This document shows, one piece after another, positions 1,780 to 2,118 of a stretch of 64,000 nt of DNA. Position 1 is the stretch's first letter. Each line of letters starts with the position of its first letter. A program made the translations under genes and the position numbers. Origin of the DNA: Kappaphycus alvarezii. Taxonomy: Eukaryota > Rhodophyta > Florideophyceae > Gigartinales > Solieriaceae. Location: contig NADL03000060.1 in assembly GCA_002205965.3 (NCBI GenBank), positions 186,001 through 250,000 of the forward strand, given 5' to 3'. The notes beneath the pieces are model-generated. The model did no database searches, had not been told where the DNA came from, and was given only the letters and a program-made list of their open reading frames with translations.

Positions 1780-2118
1780 ATGGCTCGAACGAAGCAGCTT
1801 GATCGTTTGAGCACCGGTGGCCGTGCACCTCGCAAGAACATCGCCACTAAAGCGGCGCGAGTCGCCCGCGGTGCAAAGGGGCCTCCTCCGGTGGCTAGAG
1901 CGAATTTGATGCGGCTATTTTCGGAGCGTTCCGACATCAGGAAGGTGCTTTTCCTCGGTAGGGAGGAGCGGAACCCTTTCGTCATCCACACCGACGCCTG
2001 TGGAATACATCCATACCGCGTCTCTCGTCAGGAGTTCCTCGATCTCTTCGGGACTCACATCACAGATTACGTGATTCACTACGTTGGTGACGAAGTCACT
2101 TGGGAGGATGCTTTTTAA
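1780..2118 (+). CDS. Histone H3 tail-mimic protein, antisense accessory ORF of a Ty3 element
   Basis: 112 codons from a clear ATG (G at +4) to TAA. After the initiator Met, residues 1-26 align without gaps to the universal H3 tail: ARTKQ, then STGGRAPRK, then ATKAAR, 20 of 26 identical. K4, R2, T3, R8, S10, T11, R17, K18, K23 and R26 are kept; K9 is Leu, K14 is Arg and K27 is Val. The rest (about residues 40-112) is not the histone fold: I see no H3 alpha helices, and it begins MRLFSERSD and runs into a beta-rich acidic stretch (HYVGDEVTW). The gene lies on the strand opposite gag-pol and converges on the integrase end. The same frame stays open after the TAA for about 110 codons, so the stop may be a mutation or an error in a T-run. 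The H3 similarity is seen directly; a role in binding H3 readers or modifiers is inference. Confidence 0.8.
   Translation: [112 protein letters not shown]

Follow-up and report, generated by a model that had tools for sequence, protein, structure and literature searches.

A histone H3-like N-terminal tail on an antisense gene within a Ty3-type LTR retrotransposon of Kappaphycus alvarezii

Results

The window, a 64,000-nucleotide stretch of Kappaphycus alvarezii DNA, contains a decayed Ty3-type LTR retrotransposon that reads on the minus strand (Table 1). The LTRs at 1058–1340 and 7826–8052 are equal at 216 of 228 aligned bases (one flanking base counted in); both start with TG and end with CA, and the left LTR contains an additional segment of about 55 bases. 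The Ty3 order of protease, reverse transcriptase, RNase H and integrase runs on the minus strand from 7369 to 3193, with Pfam E-values of 1.1e-8 for the aspartyl protease, 7.3e-21 and 1.4e-7 for the reverse transcriptase (in two ORFs), 1.3e-36 for RNase H and 4.7e-12 for the integrase. Because the ORFs are scattered over different frames, the gag-pol of this carrier appears broken. No repeat of 4–8 bases abuts both LTRs, and TAACC occurs a few bases away on each side; a target-site duplication is the mark of an undisturbed insertion and not of the Ty3/Gypsy family.

Table 1 Features of the Ty3-type element and of its antisense gene (positions in the window)
Feature	Positions	Strand	Basis
3' LTR of the minus-strand Ty3-type element	1058..1340	-	Repeat with 7826-8052; TG start, CA end
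Polypurine-tract-like stretch beside the 3' LTR, G-run in the element sense	1341..1353	-	Sequence; putative role
Promoter-like putative leader of the antisense gene	1354..1779	+	C+T 78% over the final 100 bases; putative role
Met and 26-residue H3-tail-like segment	1780..1860	+	Translation, phmmer, position-by-position comparison, shuffles
ORF of 112 residues, H3-like tail and body without known domain, TAA at 2116-2118	1780..2118	+	ORF list, relative P0002
Same frame beyond the stop	2119..2454	+	13 of first 16 residues equal to P0002 114-129; coding-type codon-position GC to 2343
Coding-like stretch in a different frame, with a basic cluster close to the end	2480..3100	+	ORFs, codon-position GC
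pol, integrase (zinc-binding and core)	3193..4515	-	Pfam
pol, reverse transcriptase and RNase H, two ORFs	4484..6288	-	ORFs, Pfam
Region of the aspartyl protease; sub-threshold zinc-knuckle match	5969..7369	-	Pfam E = 1.1e-8; zinc knuckle E = 0.032
Gag-like ORF, by position	7467..7826	-	ORF; no Pfam match
Primer-binding-site-like sequence, TGG start, directly after the 5' LTR	7808..7825	-	Sequence; putative role
5' LTR	7826..8052	-	Repeat with 1058-1340

Elsewhere in the window, a second Ty3-type element lies in pieces at 30579–35166 on the plus strand, with gag (Retrotrans_gag, Ty3_capsid), reverse transcriptase, integrase and a Tf2-1-like SH3 domain, and a weaker SH3_Tf2-1 match, below the cut-off, is found at 19135–19614. 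The stretch 57829–59240 is G+C-rich, with open frames of 231, 230 and 263 codons that overlap one another and lie on both strands; the first two gave no Pfam match at E ≤ 0.01. The plus-strand open frame at 60991–61320 is a simple-repeat stretch, very rich in Glu in the portion read.

The initial annotation had described the ORF that begins at 1780 as a retrotransposon gene. This stands in so far as the ORF lies inside the LTR element; it is not, however, a part of gag-pol, since it occupies the plus strand between the end of the integrase (3193) and the 3' LTR, and this antisense position rules out a tail carried on gag-pol. The ORF is thus an antisense accessory gene of the LTR element, broken in this copy by the stop codon at 2116–2118, beyond which its frame stays open to 2454. 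Its GC content by codon position (0.62/0.46/0.61), that of 2119–2343 (0.63/0.47/0.65) and that of 2480–3097 (0.54/0.46/0.61) are similar to those of the pol ORFs (0.54/0.46/0.60, 0.55/0.37/0.58 and 0.57/0.45/0.54), whereas 2380–2479 does not fit. A score for codon usage that was trained on pol failed to pick out the frame: minus-strand frames had equal or higher scores in several blocks. Two minus-strand ORFs (124 and 113 residues) overlap the tail gene. The reading frame changes after 2166, which may reflect an intron, a frameshift or a boundary between two genes; 40 GT-AG pairs would restore the frame. The 100 bases upstream of the ATG are 78% C+T, a composition that we take to resemble that of fungal promoters, and an AATAAA lies at 3200, such that leader and AATAAA would fit an independent transcription unit. 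Five short histone-promoter motifs were sought in 1342–1779, a small search of low information that gave one AACCCT and one CCAAT.

What is the body that follows the tail? Pfam returned nothing for the first two pieces of the gene, and for 2084–3100 only DUF6383, below the cut-off (E = 0.026). Three pieces of the gene had no match at E ≤ 1 in NCBIfam or PHROGs, and the PDB sequence search gave three matches at E 0.37 to 0.65 for 2119–2343 and none at E ≤ 5 for 2480–3097. Taken together, the Pfam, NCBIfam, PHROGs and PDB sequence searches assign the body to no known domain. Rfam gave no match at the gathering score. AlphaFold models had a mean pLDDT of 34.1 for the 224-residue N-terminal part and 37.3 for 2480–3097 and are uninformative. 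The plus-strand stretch 2480–3100 is coding-like, contains the string GVYVVTIEGSHVVHHCVTMNNETGQIWDPC and the basic cluster KPGKRRKRRPGR, and is an orphan: no homologue of it was found in the protein, viral_contigs and PDB sequence searches.

The N-terminus of the 112-residue ORF presents a different picture. The initial annotation had reported a gap-free alignment of 26 residues to H3 with 20 identities, and re-translation of 1780–1860 returned the same count of 20 of the 26 residues after Met equal to the canonical H3 N-terminus. In this translation position 9 is Leu, position 14 is Arg and a Val directly follows R26, which corrects the initial annotation at these residues. When the ORF was compared with all PDB sequences using phmmer, histone H3 was matched at residues 1–34 with E = 3e-7; the match starts exactly at the Met and ends soon after R26. 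In first-order Markov shuffles of the window (60 in number), matches reached at most 8 of 26 directly after a Met and at most 11 at any position, and the window minus 1701–2200 gave 7 of 26 and 9, respectively. A degenerate DNA pattern for MARTKQ (at most one mismatch) occurs once in the window and was matched in 2 of 100 shuffles. Because of the phmmer E-value and the shuffle results, with the MARTKQ scan beside them, a chance match is ruled out as the origin of the tail, and the resemblance of the ORF to the H3 tail is real.

This resemblance ends with the tail. Past residue 34, phmmer found no significant H3 match among PDB sequences, the 112-residue ORF matched no Pfam family at E ≤ 1, and no histone family (histone fold PF00125) was among the Pfam matches at E ≤ 1 for any piece, all of which agrees with the earlier view that the body is not the H3 fold. 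An H3 pseudogene, which the initial annotation had also rejected, is ruled out by the missing histone fold and by a body that the relatives described below have in common.

Three protein searches were made, with 2084–3097, with the 112-residue ORF and with a 224-residue read-through carrying X at the stop as queries. With the 112-residue ORF, two of four candidates proved to be relatives, namely P0002 (129 residues, 74% identical), which is well preserved, and P0003 (78 residues, 46% identical), in which the tail is worn and an internal stretch of 34 residues is missing. Both derive from short contigs (1075 and 977 bases) without surrounding context. P0002 carries a residue at the point of the window's stop, and its residues 114–129 then equal the window's onward frame at 13 of 16 positions, as compared by eye; therefore, the stop is absent from P0002 and the frame is supported. 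The initial annotation had allowed for a chance fusion private to this copy, which is unlikely given that the tail is present in both relatives. The similar starts of these two related sequences suggest an inherited imitation of histones. For the query 2084–3097, whose initial part lies outside the likely frame, none of 2919 candidates was a protein match at E ≤ 0.001. Scans of viral_contigs with the A1 query, the C-terminal piece and the integrase ORF found no relatives, nor did a scan of genome_contigs with the A1 query.

The tails of the window copy, P0002 and P0003 were compared residue by residue, using H3 numbering without the Met. The H3 residue is present in all three sequences at K4, Q5, S10, T11, G13, A15, P16, R17, K18, K23 and A25, while L6, L9, N19, I20 and V27 depart from H3 and are equal in all three. 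The counterpart of H3K9 is thus Leu in every copy, with K4, K18 and K23 kept. Position 14 is R, R and Q across the three sequences, and R8 is kept in two of them (C8 in P0003). Further departures from H3 comprise D7 in the window copy; I3, G21 and K22 in P0002; and D1, L2, S3, C8, V12, A22, V24 and W26 in P0003, so that canonical H3 residues number 20, 18 and 13 of 26, respectively. Apart from the five changes found in all copies, P0002 or P0003 departs from H3 at nine positions, and the window copy equals H3 at all nine; therefore, the ancestral tail was probably nearer to H3 (21 of 26) than any present copy, with K9 already gone. Two of the five positions changed in all copies are lysines in H3, a number that is reached or exceeded by chance with p = 0.24. 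Among these three sequences, conservation did not differ significantly between tail and body (22/26 v 60/85, 16/26 v 35/51 and 16/26 v 24/51; Fisher p = 0.20, 0.61 and 0.33).

The read-through query recovered P0002 again as well as P0005, a histone H3, at E = 0.019. P0005 is the nearest histone found, a full-length H3 variant with PF00125 that carries Ile at 9 (for K9), Arg at 14 (for K14) and Asn at 19 (for Q19), and it has R14 and N19 in common with the window tail. The window tail equals P0005 at 22 of 26 residues and canonical H3 at 20 of 26, and P0005 equals canonical H3 at 22 of 26; behind the window tail, however, there is no histone fold. Because P0005 is the best match of a very large database with an E-value of only 0.019, the changes that it has in common with the window may reflect the choice of the best match, and P0005 may be regarded as a lead to the donor and not as proof of it.

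Discussion

How would a histone tail come to stand within a retrotransposon, and what would it do there? We hypothesize that a Ty3-type LTR retrotransposon acquired an accessory gene in antisense orientation between the integrase and the 3' LTR, and that the first 27 codons of this gene came from a histone H3 gene, possibly that of a variant already without K9, and were fused to an unrelated body. The gene would be expressed from its own promoter-like leader. An initiator Met is removed before Ala, and its removal here would expose the tail with a free H3-like Ala-Arg-Thr-Lys N-terminus. In the nucleus, the protein would engage host factors that bind to the H3 N-terminus or modify it, on the side of K4, K18 and K23, and, being unable to carry K9 methylation, would benefit the element. 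This reading, in which the tail of an H3 variant was captured and then retained as a general H3 N-terminus mimic lacking K9, is the one that we tentatively favour, at a little under an even chance. Against it stand the broken state of the copy, a sample of only three sequences, two of them on short contigs without context, and the lack of a significant difference in conservation between tail and body.

An alternative hypothesis is that the element passively captured an H3 gene's 5' end, with promoter, start codon and first codons, and uses it for expression alone, the tail being inherited baggage. The start of the match at the Met and its end soon after R26, the C+T-rich stretch upstream with its presumed likeness to fungal promoters and the lack of excess conservation in the tail are consistent with such a capture. 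The retention of 13 to 20 of 26 H3 residues in three diverged copies argues against it, but the body is kept to a similar degree and this point does not discriminate. We consider passive capture somewhat unlikely, and next in rank to the general mimic. Third in rank, and unlikely, is that a separate repeated gene or mobile unit landed in this one retrotransposon copy and hitch-hikes there without being a gene of the element family. Its strand opposite to gag-pol and the two relatives on contigs without context point in this direction. However, accessory ORFs are expected between pol and the polypurine tract, and the gene sits in just this interval, with pol ending on one side of it and the polypurine-like stretch on the other. 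Moreover, the inverted repeats of at least 14 bases in 1330–3260 are limited to two imperfect pairs (75% and 80%) inside the region, with none flanking the gene.

Transposons are silenced via H3K9 and H3K27 methylation in many eukaryotes. A last hypothesis, which overlaps with the reading as a general H3 N-terminus mimic, is that of a silencing decoy. An H3 decoy of the LTR lineage with K9 locked as Leu would engage heterochromatin enzymes in such a way that the silencing mark could not be deposited, a reading that we rank last and hold to be quite improbable. At the same low probability, the hydrophobic residues at 9 and 27 would let the tail act as K-to-M/I oncohistones or EZHIP do, so that the H3K9 (or K27) methyltransferase responsible for silencing the element is occupied or misdirected. 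L9 and V27 in all three sequences, with S10 and T11 kept in all three and R8 in two, would suit this action. With L9, a hydrophobic residue replaces the target lysine within the recognition sequence of a writer. Precedents are found in H3K9M, which dominantly blocks H3K9 methylation in fission yeast, and in K9-norleucine, which also binds G9a (PMC5030085). K27M and K27I are reported to prevent K27 methylation (PMC13068663), and EZHIP is a natural K27M-like inhibitor, a non-histone with an H3-like segment that inhibits a methyltransferase (PMC12713659). However, Leu is reported as inactive at K27, where H3.3K27L does not inhibit PRC2 (PMC9976889). A literature search for H3K9L listed nothing on inhibition of H3K9 enzymes by Leu at 9, and PMC5030085 does not mention K9L. 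Also against the decoy, position 27 lies just outside the aligned stretch, D7 stands beside R8 in the window copy and C8 replaces it in P0003, and changes at lysines are no commoner than chance.

The general mimic of the H3 N-terminus, our favoured reading, has partial parallels in known systems. Accessory genes in Ty3/Gypsy elements are already known: Gypsy elements of Phalaenopsis carry an AlkB-type m6A demethylase as an accessory ORF, a captured host-type gene that is there proposed to bear on host control of transposons (PMC9289625). The Phalaenopsis gene encodes an enzyme domain, whereas here an antisense H3 tail precedes a body without known domain. Histone mimicry has been described both for pathogens (PMC12937675) and for cellular proteins, among them G9a (PMC9768651). 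Influenza NS1 is likewise a protein of a parasitic genome that imitates the H3 N-terminal tail, but its H3-like part is C-terminal (PMC12937675) and that of the window protein is N-terminal and 26 residues long. EZHIP is similar in being a non-histone with an H3-like segment where the target lysine has given way to a hydrophobic residue; it differs as a gene of placental mammals that imitates the K27 region with Met (PMC12713659), whereas the imitation here takes in the whole N-terminus from residue 1, has Leu at 9 and lies in a transposon. No retrotransposon bearing an H3 tail was among the matches listed, in some cases a part of all matches, in searches of the open-access literature.

A transposon gene with the H3 tail at its start and no K9 would offer a directly testable case in which a mobile element counters chromatin silencing through imitation of the substrate of silencing. 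If the decoy is true, the element would possess an anti-silencing device made from the histone tail itself.
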